Shown in pieces: positions 18,588 to 30,934 of a stretch of DNA of 64,000 nt. A program made the translations under genes and the position numbers. Each line of letters starts with the position of its first letter. Position 1 is the first letter of the stretch. Under the pieces are notes generated by a model that had not been told where the DNA came from, ran no database searches, and worked only from the letters and a program-made list of their open reading frames with translations. This DNA comes from Fluviicola sp. (GTDB taxonomy: Bacteria; Bacteroidota; Bacteroidia; Flavobacteriales_D; Crocinitomicaceae): NCBI GenBank assembly GCA_002734085.1, contig NVXV01000008.1, positions 62,001-126,000 on the forward strand. Direction: 5' to 3'.

Positions 18588-18818
18588 ATGGGAAGACCAC
18601 CAACAAAACCAGCGAAGCTGAAAGATGGTTTTTATATTGAGGTTAGAAACGAAGGGTCTAAAGCCAATGGTATCAAAATTCGTAGAGATACAAAAGAAGA
18701 GATGCTAATGGCAATAGAGGATTACAGCCGTATTAAGGATGTAAACGTTCTAGGTGAGCTGAAAAACGATAAATGGGTAGACAAAAAAGAGAGTAAAAAG
18801 AAACTTTCTAAAAAATAA
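18588..18818 (+). CDS. Small basic protein with AT-hook-like N-terminus (MGRPPTKP)
   Basis: 76-aa ORF, GRPP motif, Lys-rich C-terminus. Confidence 0.55.
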   Translation: MGRPPTKPAKLKDGFYIEVRNEGSKANGIKIRRDTKEEMLMAIEDYSRIKDVNVLGELKNDKWVDKKESKKKLSKK

Positions 18819-18854
18819 TATCCTACTCAATAACTATATTAAAAGTCCTTTTTT

Positions 18855-18875
18855 AAGCCTAAATTACGCAAGTCT
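18855..18875 (+). repeat. Island-flanking motif copy 1 (AAGCCTAAATTACGCAAGTCT)
   Basis: 20/21 match to the reverse complement of 30857-30877. Confidence 0.6.
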
Positions 18876-18896
18876 ATAGGTAGGGCTTAAAAATTT

Positions 18897-18928
18897 AAAA
18901 GGGATTCAGATTTTTCTGAATCCTTTTT
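18897..18928. terminator. Intrinsic terminator
   Basis: AAAAGGGATTCAGA-TTTTT-CTGAATCCTTTTT hairpin. Confidence 0.75.
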
Positions 18929-19110
18929 AATTTTTGTGAATAAAGCGAAACAGCTTTCGCTTAGTAAATTTTATTTATTTTCACAATTTTCTCAAATTTT
19001 ACTTTTTACAGATTATTTATACTATAGTTGACATTTGCTCCCATGAAGGTTTGTTATTTGTTTGACAGAAATATTTTGATTATTTTTATACTAAACTTTG
19101 ATATTAAATT

Positions 19111-19626
19111 ATGCATTCAGCTGTAGACATAGCTAATATATTTGTAAGTAAAGGGCTTGAAGAAGATTCACCTGTAACGCAGATGCAACTCCAGAAAATG
19201 GTATATTTTGCACATGGTATAACTTTAGCATATACTGAAGGTAAAAATAAATTGGTTAAGGAAAAATTTGAAGCATGGGATTTTGGACCAGTTATTCCTG
19301 AGATTTATCATGAGTTTAAACAATTTGGAGCAAAACCAATCACCCCTGAAGTTGATATATATAGGTTGATAAATAAAGGGCGAAAATTTGAGTCAATTGA
19401 ATTAGAGAATCCTACTGAAAAAAAAATAGTTGATGATACATGGGAAGCTCTTAAAGGATTGACAGGTATTCAACTATCTAAATGGACACATAAAGACGAT
19501 TCTGCGTGGGCCAAAGTATATAGGCGAGGGAGTCGTAGTATTAAGTTAAAGGATGAGGACATCATCAATGACTTCACTCCTCTTTTAACAAAAAGTAAGG
19601 AGTCAAAACAAAAAGTAGGGAGTTAA
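19111..19626 (+). CDS. Panacea domain (DUF4065, SocA-like) protein, candidate antitoxin
   Basis: VTQMQLQKMVYFAHGITLAY...EAWDFGPVIPEIYHEFKQFG...LSKWTHKDDSAWAKV matches Panacea/DUF4065 signature positions. Confidence 0.8.
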   Translation: MHSAVDIANIFVSKGLEEDSPVTQMQLQKMVYFAHGITLAYTEGKNKLVKEKFEAWDFGPVIPEIYHEFKQFGAKPITPEVDIYRLINKGRKFESIELENPTEKKIVDDTWEALKGLTGIQLSKWTHKDDSAWAKVYRRGSRSIKLKDEDIINDFTPLLTKSKESKQKVGS

Positions 19627-19627
19627 A

Positions 19628-20119
19628 ATGAAGGATGATAGTCAATCAGAAAAATCCCCTGAACTTGAAGAAGAAATTTTTAGTTCTGAAAAATTATTAG
19701 ATAGTTCTGATTCAACTCAACCAAGTGATTCAACCAAAGAAAGACCTAACCCCGCAGAATCTCAAGAATGGGAAACTTCTTGGGTTTCAGATAAAGAAAC
19801 ATCGGCTTATAATGAGGTTTCGATTGATATGGAACGAGCCAAAGTTAAACGATACAAGGATGAACACACCACACGTATTAGTTTGGTTGAGAAACTATTT
19901 GTTTTAACATGTATGTGGTTGATTTTTACAGCGATTATTATTTTCGGTGTTGGCCTTGGTGATATTCAACTCTCGGATAAGGTTCTTATAACAATTCTCT
20001 CAACAACTACAGTAGAAGTTTTAGGTTATTTGACGGTAGTTTTACTATACTTATTTAACAAAGATGGAGCACCCGTTTCTAATCTTGATATAAATGCAAA
20101 AAATGGAAGCCAGTCTTAG
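19628..20119 (+). CDS. Acidic N-terminus plus two-TM membrane protein; candidate partner toxin of the Panacea gene
   Basis: Starts 1 nt after the Panacea stop; hydrophobic LFVLTCMWLIFTAIIIFGVGL and TVEVLGYLTVVLLYLF segments. Confidence 0.55.
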   Translation: MKDDSQSEKSPELEEEIFSSEKLLDSSDSTQPSDSTKERPNPAESQEWETSWVSDKETSAYNEVSIDMERAKVKRYKDEHTTRISLVEKLFVLTCMWLIFTAIIIFGVGLGDIQLSDKVLITILSTTTVEVLGYLTVVLLYLFNKDGAPVSNLDINAKNGSQS

Positions 20120-20156
20120 TAGGAGTTACATTAAGTATCAAACGGGCACAAAAATT

Positions 20157-20193
20157 AAAAAAAAGGAGTCAGATATTTTCTGACTCCTTTTTT
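20157..20193. terminator. Intrinsic terminator
   Basis: AAAAAAGGAGTCAGA-tatttt-TCTGACTCCTTTTTT hairpin. Confidence 0.75.
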
Positions 20194-20196
20194 GCT

Positions 20197-20397
20197 TTAT
20201 TCGAATTTTTCAGTGAAATTAAATTCCATCTTTTTAAGCATATACTTAGCCTTTTCTATCTCACTCTTTGCAATCAGTTTTGTTTTTTTGAAAGCATCCT
20301 TTTCAGTTGTAGCTCTATTTTGCAGCTTTTTAGATTCATCATGATGCTTCTGTCCAGCCATTCCGATTTTACTCAATTTTATTTCTTTTTTAGTCAT
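20197..20397 (-). CDS. Small basic helical hypothetical
   Basis: 66-aa ORF next to the terminator. Confidence 0.4.
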   Translation of the reverse strand: MTKKEIKLSKIGMAGQKHHDESKKLQNRATTEKDAFKKTKLIAKSEIEKAKYMLKKMEFNFTEKFE

Positions 20398-20518
20398 AAT
20401 TAATATATATATTTTTATTTGAGCAATATGCTTAATAGTTATATAGAATTTTTTACGAAAAGTTTATAATTTGATTTATTACCTGACTCCTTTTTGTTTT
20501 TGGATGATTTCGTATTAA

Positions 20519-20911
20519 TTAATCTTCTGTATTATCATCAGATTGGTCTTCAATCAAAGAAAGTATTTTGTCAAGTTTTTTATCAAATTCGCTAAATTTT
20601 GATTCCAATGAACCTATTTTTGATTCCAATGAACTAACTTTTGAGTCCAATGAGCTAATATCAGATTTTAAGGAGGCAAAGTTATTTTTTACTTCACCAT
20701 GAATTGTATTAACAAGAGTTTGTAATCCAACTATATCTTTATGGATTTTATTGAAGTGTTGTTCATATCTATCGAATCGTTTATCCAAATCGCTGAATCT
20801 TTTATTAATAGCTTTTCTTAAGTCATCAGTAGTATTTGCTTCTTCTGGCTTAATAGGCAATACTTTACTCATAAATAGTTGTTTTTTATTAAAATTATTA
20901 CAAATGTCCAA
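20519..20911 (-). CDS. Coiled-coil protein; likely start at internal MSKVLPIK
   Basis: Heptad pattern SSLDSKVSSLESKIGSLESKFSEFDKKLDKI. Confidence 0.5.
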   Translation of the reverse strand: MDICNNFNKKQLFMSKVLPIKPEEANTTDDLRKAINKRFSDLDKRFDRYEQHFNKIHKDIVGLQTLVNTIHGEVKNNFASLKSDISSLDSKVSSLESKIGSLESKFSEFDKKLDKILSLIEDQSDDNTED

Positions 20912-21230
20912 TTTGAACTAGAAAAGACTCCAGTGCATTATAAAGAGTGTGATTAATTTCCGCAAATATTAAATAATCTCCGATTAGATTGTCTGACACA
21001 CAAGATTCACCATATTTTTTTATAAGGTTTTTATTCTCGTGCAGTCTGGCAATAGTTTCTTCACATAATGTTTTAACTTCCACAGAATCAGACTGAGCTT
21101 GATATTCTCTTAAAGCTTCTATAGCTTTTTTAGAGCTTGTAGCAAGTAGATATGCTGTGGTGCCATCATCGTGTTTGGTACGCTCTGCCTCACGAAAGTA
21201 AGTTTCCAATTTTATTAAAGAATCATTCAT
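20898..21230 (-). CDS. Helical hypothetical
   Basis: Intact ORF in a minus-strand cluster. Confidence 0.45.
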   Translation of the reverse strand: MNDSLIKLETYFREAERTKHDDGTTAYLLATSSKKAIEALREYQAQSDSVEVKTLCEETIARLHENKNLIKKYGESCVSDNLIGDYLIFAEINHTLYNALESFLVQIGHL

Positions 21231-21241
21231 TGTGTTAGGTT

Positions 21242-21760
21242 TTAATTATTATTTAAAGAATCTATTTCTTTATCAATTTCTGCCAGCTCATCCTCATCAG
21301 CGGAAATCATATCACCAATTCCGAGATACTTACCATATATCAATACTTCAATTGTAGGTCTAACAGTCTTAAGAGCTTTTGTAAAATCAAATGGACCTAT
21401 TACTAAAAACACAAATGCTGATAATACTATTAGTCCAGCTGCATTCCAGTTTACTAAATCTCCCAGCTTGATGGGCTGCTCGAAATAATAAGTGGCGAGG
21501 CAGTTATATCCTACCCACAAACCAACCAAAATAAATCGGGCTATAGGATAGACAAGTCGAAATGCCCAGTCTAACCATCTTTTTTGATTACGCTTTTTTT
21601 GAATAATACTTCTTAATTTTTTCTTTCTATGCAGTAACCACTCAATACGTTTTTTATCTCTTTTGTATTGAAAAATTGCCCATAAAACAAGAATAATAGC
21701 AATAATAGCAGATACAATTATCCAACTCCAGTTATTATTATCCTTATTCTTTGATTTCAT
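21242..21760 (-). CDS. Membrane protein of unknown function
   Basis: Three hydrophobic segments; acidic C-terminal tail. Confidence 0.5.
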   Translation of the reverse strand: MKSKNKDNNNWSWIIVSAIIAIILVLWAIFQYKRDKKRIEWLLHRKKKLRSIIQKKRNQKRWLDWAFRLVYPIARFILVGLWVGYNCLATYYFEQPIKLGDLVNWNAAGLIVLSAFVFLVIGPFDFTKALKTVRPTIEVLIYGKYLGIGDMISADEDELAEIDKEIDSLNNN

Positions 21761-21888
21761 TTTAACTTTTTGGGACTATTTATAAGAAAATAGTTATGAC
21801 AATTTTTATAGAGATACAATGGTTATTTAGACGTAGAAAACGATTGAGATTAAAATCCCAGATACCAAAACATCATCAATTCAAATTT

Positions 21889-22188
21889 TTAGGAATTATT
21901 GTTACTTGGTGCGCCTAAGAATGATACGGCATTTACAGCTACAAACTTTGTGGTTTCAATTGTATCGTCAGGATTTCCCCCTCTATTTACTGTTTCAACT
22001 GCTGCTTTATAAATTGACCTTGCTTGAGCAACATCAATCATATTAGGTATCCACAATGTAGTGTTTGGCAGGTCGTGTTTTACATTATCACTGTCAGTCC
22101 AAGCATTAAAAAATCCACTATCTAATAATTCTTCCTTTAGTTCGCCATGTCTTTCAACATTGATGTCATAAGCTATTAATACATTCAT
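21889..22188 (-). CDS. Small Cas2/SinR-like (ferredoxin-fold-like) protein
   Basis: MNVLIAYDINVERHGELKEELLDSGF...LPNTTLWIPN pattern resembling SinR/Cas2-like small proteins. Confidence 0.5.
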   Translation of the reverse strand: MNVLIAYDINVERHGELKEELLDSGFFNAWTDSDNVKHDLPNTTLWIPNMIDVAQARSIYKAAVETVNRGGNPDDTIETTKFVAVNAVSFLGAPSNNNS

Positions 22189-22240
22189 AATGTCAAGAGT
22201 TTATATTTAAAACTATCATAAATATAGCAAAATTTAGCGC

Positions 22241-22280
22241 AGGGGCAATCGCTCCAGTCCGAAAGGAAAGGAGAACCCCT
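22241..22280 (-). other. Structured element: AGGGG...CCCCT closing stem around a CTCC-TCC/GGA-GGAG hairpin
   Basis: Nested inverted repeats read directly in the sequence. Confidence 0.5.
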
Positions 22281-22291
22281 AAGATGCCTTC

Positions 22292-23659
22292 TTAGCAAAT
22301 TTTTTCATACGCAATATCTGTGTCATAAAACACATATTCTGTTTCTGTTAACTCACATGCAACACTCATGAACACATATATAAAGTCACGAAGTCTTGCG
22401 TTAAGTCTAATTTCTTTTACTTTTTTCTTTAATTTTCCAATTAATGCTTGGTAAACATTATTTGTAATTGCAGCAATAATTAAGAACACAGTGTTCTCAT
22501 TCATGTTGCTAAATGGTGGTAGCTTCCAGCCGAAGTCATTTTTCATTGTATCAAAGTTTCTCTCGCTGGTTCCACGTTGGTTGTAAAATTCAACAAGTTC
22601 CTTTGCTGAACTATTCCAGTCATTGGTAATAATCAATTTATAGGCATATTGACCTCCGTATATCCATGTCATCGGAGTTGTTCCATATTGACCTTTTCTT
22701 ACTGTATCACGTTTTCTATCCATTCTTAGTACAATAAGTCTATAAGTTTCGTTTGAGCCACTTATTTTCCACTCTAAATCTGTGGTTTCGCAATCCCAAT
22801 CATAAAGAGAAGTTTGAATATATACCTTGTTCCATACATTACTGTCATCCGTATTTAAGGTCTCCATTAATTTTTTACTCTTCCTTGCACCTACAACGAA
22901 ATGAATACCATTCTTATGCAGGTAGTCAAAAGTTGGACCATGGTATGCTCCTCTATCCATCCGAACACGTCCAATGGAAATCTCGTTTTTCTCTAAATTC
23001 TCAATACATTTCTGAGTTGACTCTAATATCCTCGCACCAGGGGCAACATTCCCATTTCTCATCTCTATGTATACAGGAAGGTTGTCAATGCACGCTACCA
23101 TTGGGGCAAAACATTTCTCTTTATTTTTATTTTTCTTTGCTTCTCGAACCTCGGTGTATATAGTTGTTGCATCAAGGTCTAAGTCGTATTTTTTATTTTT
23201 ATTTAATAATCCAATTTTTGACGTTATGGACGCAAGAAGTATGTTCATTTGTTCATTGTCATTAGTTTCCCTATGAGTGACCCTCTTGTAGGTCTTACTT
23301 CCTTTTCTCATCGCTTCTCTATATCCACGTTTGCTTCTATGTACTCCAGACTCTTTAAGAACATCAGTAGCTAGACTTTTCATGACTCTACCTAGAGTAT
23401 CATGACTAGGTAATTTAAGTCCTGGAATAATATCCAAATTCTTTCTGAGTTTGGTAATATGGTCAAGTCGAAATCCTCCACATAAGTTTGTTAGCATCCA
23501 AGAAATAATAACGTCATCATATCCATACTTAGCCTGCTTGACTCTGGTGCCAAGGCACTCTCGAATTTGCTCCGCTATCTTGAAGCTCTTAATTTGCTTC
23601 AAGACAGGTATTGCTCCTCCGAAAGGCGTAATTTTTCTATTTGACCGTCTGGCTTTCAT
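22292..23659 (-). mobile_element. IS1380-family-type DDE transposase; element ends not resolved
   Basis: DLDATTIYTEVREAKKNKNKEKCFAPMVACIDNLPVYIEMRNGN, RMDRGAYHGPTFDYL, FYNQRGTSERNFDTMKNDFGW. Confidence 0.85.
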
Positions 23660-23710
23660 GATGATGTTTCTATTTCTTAGTTTTTGTTTTTTTGATTGTA
23701 TTTAGAAAAA

Positions 23711-23772
23711 GGAGGAAAGGGTTGTCAACCCTAATTACAAGAGAATAAATGGCGTTTATACTCTGAACCTCA
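23711..23772 (-). ncRNA. Tandem three-way-junction unit A
   Basis: GAGG/CCTC closing stem; inner hairpins AGGGTTGTCAACCCT and AGAGAATAAATGGCGTTTATACTCT. Confidence 0.4.
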
Positions 23773-23778
23773 CTAATA

Positions 23779-23850
23779 AAAGAGGGAAGGCTATGAGCGA
23801 AAGCCTTTTATAAAGTGGGAGTGAATTACTTATCCCACTTCAACCTCTTA
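23779..23850 (-). ncRNA. Tandem three-way-junction unit B
   Basis: AAGAGG/CCTCTT closing stem; inner hairpins AAGGCT..AGCCTT and AAGTGGGA..TCCCACTT. Confidence 0.45.
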
Positions 23851-23861
23851 TTTATTAAAAA

Positions 23862-23928
23862 AAAAGAGGGTAGCTGGCTGAGCTCTTACGAAGACTTTGA
23901 TGTTTAGTGCAAAGTCTTCAACCTCTTT
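23862..23928 (-). ncRNA. Tandem three-way-junction unit C
   Basis: AAAGAGG/CCTCTTT closing stem; 10-bp hairpin GAAGACTTTG..CAAAGTCTTC plus a weak AGCT..AGCT hairpin; U9 run follows on the minus strand. Confidence 0.45.
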
Positions 23929-23972
23929 GTTTTTTACTTGACTTATAGCAATTTGCCTGTCAAAAGTTCAAC

Positions 23973-24278
23973 TCAATTTATATTTTGATAGAAATCTAAT
24001 TTTCCATTTGTAAATGTGATGTCAAATAATTGCGTGGGATTTATTGTGTTTTTGAAAATGCGAGGCTCTATGAGTTGCTTATATTTGGGTTGACTTATAA
24101 TTGGCTTTGTTTCTAGGAGTCCATGAAACCTCAATAATGCAATTACATGCTTCATTCGGTCCTCCTCTGATATATTGAAGTCATATAAAACGGCAACAAT
24201 GTCATTAATCGGCTGATAAGCCTCATCTTTGCATTCCTCCAAAAACACTAGTAAATCTGTTAATCTATAATAAATCAT
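23973..24278 (-). CDS. Small hypothetical; ORF track opens at 24329, likely start is the ATG at 24278 (MIYYRLTD)
   Basis: Downstream start excludes the strong hairpin at 24311-24340. Confidence 0.45.
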   Translation of the reverse strand: MIYYRLTDLLVFLEECKDEAYQPINDIVAVLYDFNISEEDRMKHVIALLRFHGLLETKPIISQPKYKQLIEPRIFKNTINPTQLFDITFTNGKLDFYQNIN

Positions 24279-24487
24279 AATCTTTTGTATTTGACCAACA
24301 CATAATAAGAGAGTGCGATGAGCCCCCACTCACCGCACTCGAATTTTCATCAATTCTTTTTTGAGCGCATTTTTGTTATAGGTTCTTCACTCATTAGGGA
24401 ATAGCTGAAAACTCAGTCTAAAGACCTTCTTATTATAAATGTTGGAGTTAATATTTGCAGAAGAATTCTGCTTTGACTATGTGCTTA

Positions 24488-25771
24488 TTAGCTTGCTTTT
24501 GGGAATTCAAGCATTTTTATATCTGGAATTCCAGAAACACCTTTGATACTACCGTAAAAATCAATGGTGCTAGTTAGCACTTGCTCAATGTGTTTTGCTC
24601 TGCGTTTCCAGAGTAATTGCATTTTTCTCTGCTCATCGTGATGGCTATCTTGTAACTGCTTGAATCCTTCAAGAATAGACTCAAATGTTGCTTTAAACTC
24701 TTGAGAAGTCAAGTAATCGTAAAGTAAGCTTATTTTATCTTGTTTGCCTGATTGTTTAACCATTACTGAATGAGTCTTAAGCAAACCATATCGAAGCATT
24801 AAGGACATATCTTTTACATTGTAGAGAGTTGTTACCCAAACTCCATCAATGAGAGCATATTTACCTTTAACATCCTTAGGCATTGTCTTGGTAACGATAA
24901 CCATTATATCTGCCTTGCTTTCTAGATTATCCTGCTTGAGCTTCTTTATAAAACTGCTACTCCAGTTTTTTGTATTCTTACTTTCATAAATAATCTTCCC
25001 AGCAATTGCTCCAGTTTGTGTAACAACCGTTTGAATACAGTCAGCTCCATTTGCCCCTTTCTTTACTTCCTCAATATTATCAGTTGAGTGAATCTCGGAT
25101 AACATCTCTTCTAGAACAAGCTCTTGGGCTTCGCCTTGAGATTGCATGCTCCCTTGGTTTGCTCGCTGTTGAGCCTCTTGTAGCTTATTCTTAAGTGATT
25201 CAATTACATCTTCTTTCTCCTTAATTTTCAAGAAGCTCTCTGTTTGTAATTTTTCCTGGAGATTGGTTTTCATTTCTGAAAGTTGTTCAGATAGTTTCTC
25301 TTCCATTTTAAGATGAATCATCGCTTCTTTTTCTTCGAATTCACGAGATAGCTTCTTAAGCTTTGCTTTCGTCTGGTTCAACTCAATAAGCTGATTACTT
25401 TTTTGCTTAAGCTCATCTTCGAGTTCGGCAAGTTGACTTTCCTTTTCTTTATGAATCTCTTGACGAATTGACTCTTTAAGTTGGGTCTCTTTCGTTTTAA
25501 GTTGAGACTTTACTTGATTATCAACTACCTTAGAGAAGTCAGATTGTTCTTTTGCAAACTGTTCTGTCAACTCTGAGAGTTCAGACTTTTGTAATTGAAG
25601 TTCTTCTTCACGTCTCTTAAGTTCTGACTGTAAGTCTTTCTTAATTGACTGGTGAAATTGATTGACCAAGGCGTTATCAAGGTCAAAGGTGCTATAGCAC
25701 TCTGGGCATTTAATTTTTAATGTTTTCATGACTATTGGTTTTTGTGCTGCTATTTGCAGCTGGTTAAACAT
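24488..25771 (-). CDS. DUF2130 domain protein: N-terminal zinc-ribbon-like CPEC, long coiled coil, nuclease-like C-terminal domain
   Basis: MKTLKIKCPECYSTF start (about 25729), coiled coil, GADCIQTV...GKIIYESKNTKNWSSSFIKKLKQD. Confidence 0.75.
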   Translation of the reverse strand: MFNQLQIAAQKPIVMKTLKIKCPECYSTFDLDNALVNQFHQSIKKDLQSELKRREEELQLQKSELSELTEQFAKEQSDFSKVVDNQVKSQLKTKETQLKESIRQEIHKEKESQLAELEDELKQKSNQLIELNQTKAKLKKLSREFEEKEAMIHLKMEEKLSEQLSEMKTNLQEKLQTESFLKIKEKEDVIESLKNKLQEAQQRANQGSMQSQGEAQELVLEEMLSEIHSTDNIEEVKKGANGADCIQTVVTQTGAIAGKIIYESKNTKNWSSSFIKKLKQDNLESKADIMVIVTKTMPKDVKGKYALIDGVWVTTLYNVKDMSLMLRYGLLKTHSVMVKQSGKQDKISLLYDYLTSQEFKATFESILEGFKQLQDSHHDEQRKMQLLWKRRAKHIEQVLTSTIDFYGSIKGVSGIPDIKMLEFPKAS

Positions 25772-25966
25772 GGTCCAATCATTCTCATGGATTGGATTTA
25801 TTTCGATAAATTGTTTGTTTAAACCTTTTCAAGAACCAGAATAAGGTATGAAGTTGACACTATTGGGGATAGCATTTCTGCGGGTCAACATCATCTTATA
25901 CGTAAATAAAAATATTTTGTTACAAAAACGTAACAATTTTAGATTTAATTCGTATGAATAATTATA

Positions 25967-26197
25967 ATGAATGAAGAGATGACAAATACAGAATACTTAC
26001 AGAAACTTGCTGAAAAAATAAAGAATACTAGAAAGCAAAAAAAGATGACTCAAGAGAAGCTTGCAGATAGGCTTGGAACAGTTCCTAGCTATGTTGCAAG
26101 AATGGAAAAAGGAGAGCAAGATAGCCGAATCACATCCTTACTTGAGTTAGCAGATGCCTTAGATATAAGTATTGGAGAGTTGGTGAGCGTAAATTAA
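25967..26197 (+). CDS. XRE-family HTH regulator
   Basis: KIKNTRKQKKMTQEKLADRLGTVPSYVARMEKGEQ HTH_3 pattern. Confidence 0.85.
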   Translation: MNEEMTNTEYLQKLAEKIKNTRKQKKMTQEKLADRLGTVPSYVARMEKGEQDSRITSLLELADALDISIGELVSVN

Positions 26198-26201
26198 AAT
26201 A

Positions 26202-27218
26202 TTATTCAAGTAAGGATATTTTGGATATAATCACTTCATTCTCCAGAACTGAATCTTCAACACCTTCCTGATAAACATCTACTTCTCCTAATTTATAGGT
26301 GACATTGAATTTTTGATTTAAGAATTCATCTTTCATTTTACAGGAATTATCAGGATTGGCATATTTATCTAGATTTGCATTCCATATCATTATTTGTTCT
26401 CCTTGTTCATCCTCAAATAATGTAAGACAGCTGCCACGGAACTCACCTCCAACATATTTTAATATCATTGTTGAGTCCTTTTTTATGCTTACCTCTTTTT
26501 TGCTGTTGTCGCTTGTAATTTCTTGAACGTAGCCATCATCCGTAACTTTGTATTGTTTTATGTCAAGATTTACCTCTTCACCAACAGGGATTTCAAAGTT
26601 GTCATTAAAATCTTTTTCATCCAAGGTATGGAGAACTCTATTTTCAGAGGGATTTAGAATAATAAACAGTGTTTTATACTGAGCTTTGTGCTGTGAATGA
26701 TGAAGAGAGTATTCATAGTTAATTTTATAAATTTTACCTATGACTTCATTTGGTTCTCGATTTTTTAAGCTCTCCAAAGGCTTAAACATGTGAGCATAAT
26801 TATTATCTTCAAAATTACCCTTAGATGCTTGATATATCTCTGATATATCTTGACAATTTTTTCTCATATCTTTAACAAGTTTATCTAACTCTCCTTTATG
26901 ATACTTATTTACCTCCCCATCAGAATAGTACATCTTGGACCTTGGTCTTTCAGCCAATCGTGCCCCTGCACTCAACTCATTAAGTATTTCATCGTATGTA
27001 TTTTGCACTGCCTTTAATTTTTTACTGGCAATTAGCAAACTATCTTGCACGGTAATGTCTTTGATGTTTTCCACTTCATTTACTATGAATCGAGCATAAC
27101 TTTTCCTCTTTTGAATTTGTTCTTTAATTTCGCTGGTTAATACTTCGTCACCAGTTTTAGACTGCCCTCCACAAGAGTAGATAATAGTAATAATTGAAAG
27201 TGTCAGTAATAATCTCAT
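26202..27218 (-). CDS. Hypothetical lipoprotein
   Basis: MRLLLTLSIITIIYSCGG lipobox. Confidence 0.55.
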   Translation of the reverse strand: MRLLLTLSIITIIYSCGGQSKTGDEVLTSEIKEQIQKRKSYARFIVNEVENIKDITVQDSLLIASKKLKAVQNTYDEILNELSAGARLAERPRSKMYYSDGEVNKYHKGELDKLVKDMRKNCQDISEIYQASKGNFEDNNYAHMFKPLESLKNREPNEVIGKIYKINYEYSLHHSQHKAQYKTLFIILNPSENRVLHTLDEKDFNDNFEIPVGEEVNLDIKQYKVTDDGYVQEITSDNSKKEVSIKKDSTMILKYVGGEFRGSCLTLFEDEQGEQIMIWNANLDKYANPDNSCKMKDEFLNQKFNVTYKLGEVDVYQEGVEDSVLENEVIISKISLLE

Positions 27219-27266
27219 ATGAATATATTTTTCGCTAATATACGAAATAAACAGTTACAAACAACC

Positions 27267-27280
27267 GATTGTATACAATC
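27267..27280. promoter_or_regulatory. Perfect 14-bp palindrome GATTGTATACAATC, candidate operator
   Basis: Lies between divergent lipoprotein and XRE genes. Confidence 0.45.
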
Positions 27281-27315
27281 ACTTGAAATAATATGATTGA
27301 AGTTAATTTCACAGC

Positions 27316-27549
27316 ATGGTTAAAAGTGGTAGAAAATCAGAGATGCCAATAGAAATAATTGAGCTTGGACAGCGAATTCAACAGATTATTAAAGAAAAAG
27401 GATTTAAAACTAGAGAGGTAGCTCACGATTCAGGACTAGATGTCGAGAATTTGAGGAAGTACATCAAGGGAAGACAAGAGATGAAGGTTAGTACGATGCT
27501 TAAAATTTCTAGAGCACTTAAAGTTGATGTTGGAGAATTGTTTAAATAA
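27316..27549 (+). CDS. XRE-family HTH regulator
   Basis: LGQRIQQIIKEKGFKTREVAHDSGLDVENLRKYIKGRQEM HTH pattern. Confidence 0.8.
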   Translation: MVKSGRKSEMPIEIIELGQRIQQIIKEKGFKTREVAHDSGLDVENLRKYIKGRQEMKVSTMLKISRALKVDVGELFK

Positions 27550-27655
27550 ATTAAAAAACCAATTGAACGAGTGACTGTAATTATGCAATTAACCCAAAAC
27601 AAAGACTCAAATTTGATTTAAATTACTATATTGCAATAAATTAAAACCTTTAATC

Positions 27656-27862
27656 ATGCCAAATTATTACGTTAGAACGGTGCCTCAATCGAATGGAGAC
27701 CATGAAGTTCATAAGGAAGGATGTAGTTATATGCCTTTATCAGAAAACAGAAAAAAACTTGGAAATTTCCCAACTTGTAAATCTGCTGTCACAGAGGCGA
27801 AGAAGACATACTCAAAATCAAACGGTTGTTATTATTGCAGTAATGACTGTCATACAAGTTAA
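27656..27862 (+). CDS. Small Cys-rich protein
   Basis: 68 aa with EGCSY, PTCKSA, GCYYCSNDC motifs. Confidence 0.6.
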   Translation: MPNYYVRTVPQSNGDHEVHKEGCSYMPLSENRKKLGNFPTCKSAVTEAKKTYSKSNGCYYCSNDCHTS

Positions 27863-28002
27863 TTAACGAGAACATCTAAGTATATTTGTACAAGTCTTGA
27901 ATTTAACTATTCCTAATGGTTGTTCAAGTCATATGTACTATTTTATCTTTTTTGTAACTTTATTTCAAATGATAAAGTAATTATATTTACATATTTATAG
28001 AA

Positions 28003-28299
28003 ATGAATAGAGTGTTTAATCATAGATTAATTGATGTTTTTAAGGCTTGTCTAAAAGCTCTAAAACAACTCAAAATGAAAGTAGATTATGAAAGTCTTGA
28101 AAAGGGTAGAATCGAAGCCTCTACAAGAGCCTCAATACTTTCATGGGGAGAAAGCATTGTGATTGATTTTGAATCGAGTGGCGATAAGTGTTCAATGAAG
28201 GTTTCATCAGAAGCTGCGGCGCAAGTTTTTAGTTGGGGAAAGGATTCATCGAATGAAAGAGAAATATTAAACTTAACTGAAAAAAAACTGAAGACTTGA
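28003..28299 (+). CDS. Hypothetical, 98 aa
   Basis: Intact ORF, 4-nt overlap with the next gene. Confidence 0.5.
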   Translation: MNRVFNHRLIDVFKACLKALKQLKMKVDYESLEKGRIEASTRASILSWGESIVIDFESSGDKCSMKVSSEAAAQVFSWGKDSSNEREILNLTEKKLKT

Positions 28300-28628
28300 A
28301 ACTTTATATATCAAATTGTAAGTCTTGTGGGAAAAAAATCCCATTGAATTTAAACGCTCCAAGTAGGGCTCATATAAGAAATATATATGGTGACCAATTT
28401 AGCGTTGAGTGCTCTAATTGTTGTAATATAAATGATTACACGCCGAGCGATATACATGCTGAGTCTCAAGTTAACTCGACTATTAAAGGTGGAGCTATTG
28501 GAGGCGCTATTGGTTTGTTAGGAGGGCCAATCGGTCTTCTTATAGGTGGCGCTATTGGAGGTGCTATTGGTAATGACCAAGATACACAGGAAAAAAATCA
28601 AGTAAAACGTTTTAATAGGAGTTATTGA
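28296..28628 (+). CDS. Zinc-ribbon-like plus glycine-zipper protein
   Basis: CKSCGKK...ECSNCC and GGAIGGAIGLLGGPIGLLIGGAIGGAIG. Confidence 0.55.
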   Translation: MKLYISNCKSCGKKIPLNLNAPSRAHIRNIYGDQFSVECSNCCNINDYTPSDIHAESQVNSTIKGGAIGGAIGLLGGPIGLLIGGAIGGAIGNDQDTQEKNQVKRFNRSY

Positions 28629-28630
28629 GT

Positions 28631-29146
28631 ATGAACTTGAAAAATCTAAATAAAATAAAACTTGGTAGACTTTCTCTTATTTTAATTGGCTCTGCTTTGA
28701 TTGTTTGTTTTGCTGTCATAGACAATTTCTTATCACCGATTACCCATAGTTTTAGAACGATTGCTGAATTAAAAGGGTTATTTTTTATTATTGTTGGCAT
28801 ATCTACTTTTATAGGCATCTTGCATTTGATTTATGTAGCTCAAAAAGGTCACACAAATGAATATCTTCTCTATCGAAGGATGGGGCCTATAATTTCTTCC
28901 CCATTAACTGCTGCCACTCAAGGAGTTTTTATCTATGGTGGCATAGAAATAGTGTTTATTATTTGCTATGACATTTCCACTGTTAAGGAATTTCAAGGTA
29001 TAAATAAACTTGCAGTGTCAATAGCAATGCTTGCAATAGTTATATATGCTTTTTACATTTTGTCTGCGATGCTATCTGATATAGTCAAGTACGAACCTGA
29101 TAATACTGAAACAGGAAAAATAGTATCGGATAAAAAAAGTAAATAA
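28631..29146 (+). CDS. Multi-TM membrane protein; ORF opens at 28625 (TTG), ATG at 28631
   Basis: Four hydrophobic segments. Confidence 0.5.
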   Translation: MNLKNLNKIKLGRLSLILIGSALIVCFAVIDNFLSPITHSFRTIAELKGLFFIIVGISTFIGILHLIYVAQKGHTNEYLLYRRMGPIISSPLTAATQGVFIYGGIEIVFIICYDISTVKEFQGINKLAVSIAMLAIVIYAFYILSAMLSDIVKYEPDNTETGKIVSDKKSK

Positions 29147-29196
29147 CTATAACCTAAGTAATTTTTGCACTAATATTTTAAAAAATAGAAAACCAC

Positions 29197-30768
29197 ATGG
29201 ACTTTAGTAAGAATCCCTTGTTAAATTCTACTCACGAATATAAACTCAGAACCATTTATAAAAGGTTTCCAGGCCTAAAAAAAGCTGATAAAACCGAAAT
29301 CCTTTCATTATATGATTTTTTTAACTCAACACCTCAGAAATATTTCTCTCAAGAAGTATTCAAGGTTTACTATGAGTTCATATCTGAAATGAAACCAGAA
29401 AGATTACAAATGTGTTTTAAAGAACATGTTCATTCTTTGGATATTGCTTTTAAATCATTATCAAGAATTAATAATGAAAATTTTCATGATACTTTTCATC
29501 CAAATGATGAAATTGATAGAATACGATTCATAGATAGATATATTCATCACAATTATCAACGTTTAATTGAAGGGGCTTATCACGCTTTTATTTATCCCAT
29601 TACATTTGATATATTGAAATCAAATGATAAGAAAACCGAGAATATGAATGTCTTTAACTGTAATCAAGTTTTAGAAAAGTCAGAAAAATTCAGCATAATT
29701 TCAAAGTTCTATGACCATGATGTTAGAAATGCTATTGCGCACAATGATATTGAATTTTTGGAAAAAGATATAAAATATCGAAATAGAAAAAAAGTTAAAG
29801 TTTTACATAGTCGGAGTACAATAAATTTATTTGACAAGTTGCTTGATACGTGCAATGCCATGGCTTTTGCGCTTAAAACTTTTGTACTCACTAATAATGA
29901 GTTTATTCAAGAGAATAATATACAAATTCCTAAGTGGATTATAGTTGAAGAGATAATTCCAAACTTAAATACTTATGAATGGAGAGTTGAAGATATTTTT
30001 GAATCAACTTTGCCAGATGGAAGGAATCAGTTAATAATTTATGGGAAGAATAGTTTACTAAGTTTTAATGAGGCACTATTTTATTCTTTTCAAACCACGA
30101 TATTAACTGAACGATTTCTTAGTGGTTATGATAGATACTACATTAGTTCTCAGAGTAAATATGCTCCTATATGCTTTGGAGGATTTAACGGTAAGATACT
30201 GAAGGAAAATAGAGAGAAAGGCAACTTAAATTACAAAGGGGTTATTGAAGATGTGCTTTTCTTTGTACCCAAATTTAAAACACCTCGCTTCTTCAGATTA
30301 TTGAGACGATTATATTTTACTTCTAAAACTGAATTTAAATACAAGTATTTATTTCGTAAAAAAAGTGAATATCAAGTAAGATGGACGGAAAGTCATCGTA
30401 ATGTAAATCATTCAGTCGTGAAGGCTGGGGTTGTTTTAACAAGTATTGACAAATTGCCTGAAGATATTATACGAGAAAATATAACTCAAATCGCTCGTAA
30501 GACTATTAAAAATGCTAGAAAAAACACTTCCTTGTTTAAAAGGCATAGGTATTTGACAGTTGGGTATTTAAGTATTTTCATATATCAAGAGGATAGGCGA
30601 CTTAGGGAAATTAAGAACTCAGGATTGATTGAGAACTTGATTTGTACTGTTGTGAAGAAAAAACTGAAGAGAATTAATTCTCCTGATATAATTGGAAGCA
30701 AAATTGAAACCATAGGAAATTACAGAATTGCCTGGAATAAGAATTCAACTGTTTTTGATAATGTTTAA
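29197..30768 (+). CDS. Large hypothetical with HEPN-like RNAIAH (RX4H) motif
   Basis: KFYDHDVRNAIAHNDIEF in a predominantly helical context. Confidence 0.55.
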   Translation: MDFSKNPLLNSTHEYKLRTIYKRFPGLKKADKTEILSLYDFFNSTPQKYFSQEVFKVYYEFISEMKPERLQMCFKEHVHSLDIAFKSLSRINNENFHDTFHPNDEIDRIRFIDRYIHHNYQRLIEGAYHAFIYPITFDILKSNDKKTENMNVFNCNQVLEKSEKFSIISKFYDHDVRNAIAHNDIEFLEKDIKYRNRKKVKVLHSRSTINLFDKLLDTCNAMAFALKTFVLTNNEFIQENNIQIPKWIIVEEIIPNLNTYEWRVEDIFESTLPDGRNQLIIYGKNSLLSFNEALFYSFQTTILTERFLSGYDRYYISSQSKYAPICFGGFNGKILKENREKGNLNYKGVIEDVLFFVPKFKTPRFFRLLRRLYFTSKTEFKYKYLFRKKSEYQVRWTESHRNVNHSVVKAGVVLTSIDKLPEDIIRENITQIARKTIKNARKNTSLFKRHRYLTVGYLSIFIYQEDRRLREIKNSGLIENLICTVVKKKLKRINSPDIIGSKIETIGNYRIAWNKNSTVFDNV

Positions 30769-30856
30769 TGAATGAATTTACAATAAAACCTCCAGAAAAC
30801 AAATCCCAGATGCTTATTCTTATTATACGAAAGCTCCTATTTTAATGTTGCAATTG

Positions 30857-30877
30857 AGACTTGCGTAATTAAGGCTT
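30857..30877 (-). repeat. Island-flanking motif copy 2 (inverted)
   Basis: AGACTTGCGTAATTAAGGCTT = reverse complement of 18855-18875 with one mismatch. Confidence 0.6.
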
Positions 30878-30934
30878 TTTTAAGGGCTTTTTTTATTTTA
30901 GAGAAATCTTATTTTTATTTATTGTGAACTGCTC

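Follow-up and report, generated by a model that had tools for sequence, protein, structure and literature searches.

Three tandem three-way-junction units, possibly an attenuator array, precede the transposase gene of an IS1380-type transposon in Fluviicola sp.

The window analyzed here, a stretch of 64,000 nucleotides, carries on its minus strand (23704-23928) three consecutive units of ~65-70 nt apiece, each closed by a U-rich run. All three share the architecture GAGG-UU-hairpin-(R)UAA-hairpin-CCUC followed by the U-rich run, and together they occupy the 313-bp intergenic region between a small open reading frame (ORF) and a transposase gene, both of which are co-directional with the array (Table 1). 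The three-unit array is real and is not a product of chance. Tentatively, we interpret it as a tandem attenuator or insulator that would reduce the transcription reaching the transposase gene from the genes upstream. A preliminary description of this DNA had reported three tandem units of one architecture on the minus strand, and all the letters it quoted were found to be present. Directly after the closing stem, the tail letters are TTTTTTTTT in unit C, TTTTATT in unit B, and CTTTTTC in unit A; such T-rich tails were present in all three units on the minus strand only.

Table 1 Features of the array and of its carrier element. Positions refer to the window.
Feature	Position	Strand	Remarks
Unit C	23857..23928	-	AAAGAGG-UU-10-bp hairpin-GUAAG-4-bp hairpin-AC-CCUCUUU, then U run (9 T)
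Unit B	23774..23850	-	AAGAGG-UU-hairpin-AUAA-6-bp hairpin-C-CCUCUU, then UUAUU
Unit A	23704..23773	-	GAGG-UU-interrupted 9-bp hairpin-GUAAUU-6-bp hairpin-UU-CCUC, then CUUUUUC
Own-unit P1, unit C	23925-23922/23869-23866	-	
Own-unit P1, unit B	23847-23844/23785-23782	-	
Own-unit P1, unit A	23771-23768/23715-23712	-	
Left element end	18858..18873	-	ACTTGCGTAATTTAGG read outward
Right element end	30859..30874	+	ACTTGCGTAATTAAGG read outward
Target-site duplication	left 18848..18857, right 30875-30884		CTTTTTTAAG, 10 bp
IS1380-family DDE transposase gene	22292..23659	-	directly downstream of array; Pfam DDE_Tnp_1_4
Small ORF	23973..24278	-	101 aa counted from ATG; no family match; located 44 bp upstream of unit C
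Second structured region, cloverleaf-like	24290..24450	-	between DUF2130 gene and small ORF; z -5.9
DUF2130 protein gene	24488..25771	-	same operon direction

When each unit was folded alone, the three-way junction was both the MFE and the centroid structure, with -20.3 kcal/mol (z -3.3) for unit C, -24.2 kcal/mol (z -4.2) for unit B, and -13.5 kcal/mol (z -1.0) for unit A, the stability of unit A by itself being unexceptional. The second hairpin of unit C, previously remarked upon as weak, had 4 bp in this fold. For the entire 236-nt stretch the folding z was -4.65. A unit descriptor, consisting of a 4-bp G+C-rich closing stem, a first hairpin with 9 or more pairs, a second with 4 or more, and then a T-rich stretch, matched the 313-bp intergenic region three times, while a single match was obtained in 1 of 2000 dinucleotide shuffles of this region and more than one in none of the 2000. 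The same descriptor gave 1 match in 300 kb of the organism's own genome and 0-2 matches in each of 30 whole-window shuffles. The reverse strand folds about equally well, so the direction of the array was assigned from gene order and the minus-strand T-rich tails.

The three related sequences were aligned by hand to fit the structure, with loops N-padded to keep the arms in register. Standard pairing was found in 92.5% of the pair cells of this alignment, and 12 of 23 pairs were altered on both sides among the units, compared to 4.5 expected from shuffles and with none of 500 shuffles reaching 12; slid registers of the alignment gave 2-4 such pairs. Selection on structure had been proposed earlier on the ground that the inner stems differ yet still pair, and the excess of both-sided changes agrees with this. 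As judged from a structure-fitted alignment of three, pairing appears to be kept among paralogues, which is not a phylogenetic test. P1 (GAGG/CCUC), the UU that follows P1, and the UAA preceding the second hairpin were identical in all three units. Stems that vary on both sides around an identical P1 and identical junction bases usually indicate that a junction fold is under selection, and they would suit a structured RNA that acts in trans or as a sensor, that is, either ~65-nt RNAs (cut or stopped) or a tandem aptamer, with a protein or ligand predicted to be bound via the constant junction (P1 GAGG/CCUC, J1/2 UU, J2/3 UAA). The U run at each unit end, as in processed or terminated sRNAs, would also fit. 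However, there is no space for separate promoters between the units, and with three paralogues only, the constancy could also reflect descent.

Searches for relatives of the array bear on the same reading. Rfam gave no gathering-score match in the window and chance-level matches only in the array region, just as the preliminary description had recognized no named RNA family. A covariance model built on the array units (R1) scored 65.8 bits for unit C, 73.9 bits for unit B, and 63.6 bits for unit A. With R1, these three units only were recovered from the 4.03-Mb genome, nothing credible from 240 family and 395 class genomes (about 620 in all), and no array from loci and elements with related transposases. 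The preliminary description had named the absence of homologous arrays elsewhere as a result that would refute it, and this was the result obtained in the genomes and elements searched. The term RNA family therefore carries no phylogenetic demonstration here. The lack of a homologue in these genomes, in related elements, and in Rfam argues against a trans-acting or sensing RNA, which we consider unlikely and which ranks next after the attenuator reading. Two R1 matches of 24-27 bits (L097 and L098) lay in the tails of unrelated genes and were rejected, as were five viral stretches that matched in an IMG/VR pattern scan, none of which folds into the unit. A DNA search for array copies gave AT-rich chance matches only in the organism's own genome and no copies in plasmids and phages. 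A MITE or dispersed-repeat reading was rejected because neither DNA nor R1 searches revealed a second copy in the genome.

The complete transcript behaved differently from the isolated units. Its MFE structure had -63.8 kcal/mol compared to -58.0 kcal/mol for three separate junctions; the closing strands mostly re-paired with neighboring units, and the own-unit P1 probability was 0.03-0.38. While unit C is the last unit made, with its U run just transcribed, its P1 probability was 0.99. The six inner hairpins were robust, and the closing stems (GAGG and CCUC strands) were exchangeable between units. Hence, the earlier picture of three three-way junctions holds for each unit folded alone, whereas the complete transcript favors an inter-unit P1, giving two competing folds. 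Inter-unit P1 pairing was absent from the preliminary description.

The array is carried by a 12,017-bp transposon (window 18858-30874) with inverted ACTTGCGTAATTNAGG ends, and this carrier element was likewise missing from that description. Together with the target duplication, the inverted ends identify it as an IS1380-type mobile element. The 4.03-Mb genome contains exactly two copies of the core motif of the ends, TGCGTAATTNAGG; in viral contigs scanned with the end motif, there were chance matches that had neither the full end sequence nor element genes. The insertion site is the loop of a terminator after the gene at 18588-18818, and when the element was excised in silico, the terminator hairpin with its T run was restored. 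This flanking gene is kept in nine genus relatives, and in those inspected (L087, L089, and L095) it is followed by an ordinary terminator.

The transposase reached 199 bits with NCBIfam NF033539, above the cut-off of 180 for the IS1380 family (IS942, IS613, and IS612), and it was 28-31% identical to the IS942, IS612, IS613, and ISBf12 proteins. Its gene is single-copy in the genome, and no transposase of this kind was found in the viral contigs searched. Unlike these IS1380-family transposons, the present element is 12 kb long, carries DUF2130, HTH, and cargo genes, and has ACTTGCGTAATTNAGG ends, with target duplications of 7-13 bp across the related elements. The IS1380-family transposase presumably acts on these ACTTGCGTAATTNAGG ends. 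Small ORFs are also carried by the element. The literature searched held nothing on a DUF2130/IS1380 element or on its terminator-loop targeting, and the 12,017-bp IS1380-type transposon appears to be undescribed there. DUF2130 homologues, 39% (L014) to 54% identical, occupy the same position in the related loci L014, L016, and L017. The DUF2130 protein has an invariant D244, an E263-x-K265, and a long coiled coil, and it precedes the transposase in four elements. By its residue pattern, D244...ExK may form a PD-(D/E)XK-type motif, and the protein is possibly a nuclease partner of the transposase. Structure predictions were of low confidence for both the DUF2130 protein (pLDDT 58) and the small ORF (pLDDT 56).

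Structured mobile-element DNA was among the options raised in the preliminary description. The array does lie inside a transposon, and both strands fold, which would be compatible with single-stranded DNA structures used in recombination, such as attC-like sites or transposon-end structures. The array resembles integron attC arrays in that folded sites are arranged in tandem in mobile DNA. It differs from them in that its units are three-way-junction shaped, with no cassettes between them. Furthermore, the array is not located at the ends of the element, since 5-7 kb separate it from these ends and from the target duplication; a search of the genome for the integron integrase (TIGR02249) gave sub-threshold tyrosine recombinases only and nothing over the curated cut-off; and there are no further array copies. 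A recombination role is thus scarcely probable.

The small upstream gene was considered in a similar manner. Since the array begins 44 bp past the stop codon of the small ORF, it might stabilize or regulate that gene, either as a 3'-UTR structure or as a type III toxin-antitoxin repeat RNA, a resemblance suggested by structured units arranged in tandem next to a small gene. In type III systems, the antitoxin repeats are nearly identical direct repeats located upstream of the toxin gene. In contrast, the units described here, of ~70 nt, have diverged and follow the gene, and no toxin matched the small ORF. A genome search with PF13958 (ToxN) gave no match, although the control likewise matched nowhere. 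We regard a role of the array in serving the small gene as decidedly improbable.

Comparison with related elements showed how restricted the array is. In L014 (Flavobacteriales BRH_c54), the transposase is 83% identical to that of the window, the gene order is the same (divergent HTH, DUF2130, small ORF, transposase), and both loci are bounded by inverted CTTGCGTAATTNAGG-type ends; inverted end pairs enclose the L014 and L016 elements as well. DUF2130, a small ORF, and the transposase are kept in L016, where an HTH protein is on the other strand before DUF2130, and in L017, which is cut by a contig end. Removal of the full L014 element (L032/L033), which has a 13-bp duplication, restored an equally good terminator, while the L016 element (L034) has a 7-bp duplication and no clear terminator. 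By eye, the single ends L038, L039, L083, and L084 have the appearance of terminator halves.

In L014, 73 bp separate the small ORF from the transposase gene and the array is absent there, the leader closest to the transposase AUG is still similar to that of the window, and the two small ORFs have no recognizable relationship. No such hairpins were found in the gap before the transposase in L014, L016, or L017. In L015, a 43% relative, the corresponding gap contains T-run hairpins that differ in sequence from those of the array. By this comparison, the array is an addition in one lineage, in a gap where terminator-like hairpins have arisen at least twice, and selection may have favored a terminator-like structure there repeatedly. 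The presence of the array in one element only, and its absence from the 83% relative L014, would also be expected of a locally duplicated hairpin with no selected function now, a recombination leftover in one element lineage. Unselected duplicates would lose their pairing, however, whereas nearly all pair cells are paired here and both-sided changes are frequent, so this explanation is quite improbable.

The attenuator reading, which we favor tentatively, would operate as follows. RNA polymerase arriving from DUF2130 and the small ORF would transcribe the units in the order C, B, A. Every unit would fold as it emerges, forming a branched hairpin with a short G+C closing stem right next to the U-rich run, and would thereby have some chance of stopping transcription before the transposase AUG. 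With interchangeable GAGG and CCUC strands, a unit that failed to stop the polymerase could re-pair with its neighbor, which would place the U run in a loop, so the braking by the array could also be graded or switchable. Transcription in the minus direction, the stop itself, and low transposase expression as its purpose are what we infer. Consistent with this reading, all three units take the same shape alone, far above chance, with stems kept by both-sided changes; all have T-rich tails on the minus strand; and the closing stem of unit C is 99% formed at the fresh U run. The array also fills the gap that measures only 73 bp in L014, and L015 has T-run hairpins in the corresponding place. In addition, as the element inserts into terminators, one terminator is destroyed, and the element would be exposed to read-through.

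Several observations count against the attenuator reading. None of the three units was called in a canonical-terminator scan, because the stem at the U run closes a junction and has only 4-7 bp. Among the options of the preliminary description, tandem terminators or attenuators fit best, but not in canonical form: a U-rich tract follows the stem, whereas the uninterrupted G+C-rich, short-loop hairpin of an intrinsic terminator before the U tract is lacking. The array resembles tandem terminators and attenuators in that a G+C-rich stem leads directly into a U-rich run and this arrangement recurs between co-directional genes; it differs from intrinsic terminators in that the stem at the U run is short, closes a three-way junction, and can exchange strands between units. 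The genome does not make regular use of branched, U-ended units, as the single match in 300 kb indicates, own-unit closing stems are disfavored energetically in the complete transcript, and in L014, L016, and L017 no such hairpins occupy this position. The constant junction UU and UAA would be unneeded for simple termination. Finally, a search for Bacteroidota-type promoters upstream of the transposase found nothing convincing in the leader downstream of the array, and full termination would therefore silence the transposase.

Should the array stop transcription, it would show that branched junctions closed by short stems and followed by a U run can serve as tandem attenuators, which current terminator finders miss, and it would provide a control point for transposase dosage in a large-cargo IS1380-type transposon. 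A more specific proposal, that the exchangeable chain of branched attenuators is a new tandem three-way-junction regulatory RNA whose stop/read-through switch meters the transposase of a terminator-homing transposon, seems improbable to us.

Other structured elements were observed in the transposon and its relatives. Strong two-way terminator hairpins lie just inside an element end, at 18897-18928 in the window and at about 790-830 in L033, and they may replace the terminator destroyed by insertion. A conserved hairpin of the TCTCCTTTCC-ATTC-GGACTGGAG-CAAT type follows the transposase stop codon at 22242-22280 (minus strand) in the window, at 4380-4417 in L014, and at 2755-2795 in L012; in L015 and L017, a different hairpin lies right after the transposase stop.

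The cloverleaf-like region between the DUF2130 gene and the small ORF had no match in Rfam. Its third hairpin (24310-24341) has a GTGGGG apical (GGGG) loop in the window, L014, and L016, and 7 of its 13 pairs are changed on both sides across these three. The region was located at 2370-2540 in L014 and 2440-2580 in L016, with a weaker version at 980-1030 in L017, and it is more widely kept than the three-unit array. In general interest, the carrier element, with its terminator-loop insertion and the GGGG-loop RNA structure beside the DUF2130 gene, may outrank the array.

Two further gene groups were noted. At the left end of the element, 19111-19626 encodes a SocA/Panacea-domain antitoxin-like protein that scores below the NCBIfam SocA cut-off; together with 19628-20119, it is possibly toxin-antitoxin cargo. 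In L015 (1179-2676), tandem small ORFs before the transposase share the C-terminal pattern GGxxLxxxxxPxDxAxNIxEF, which is also present in L017, and these small proteins form an uncharacterized family in these elements.
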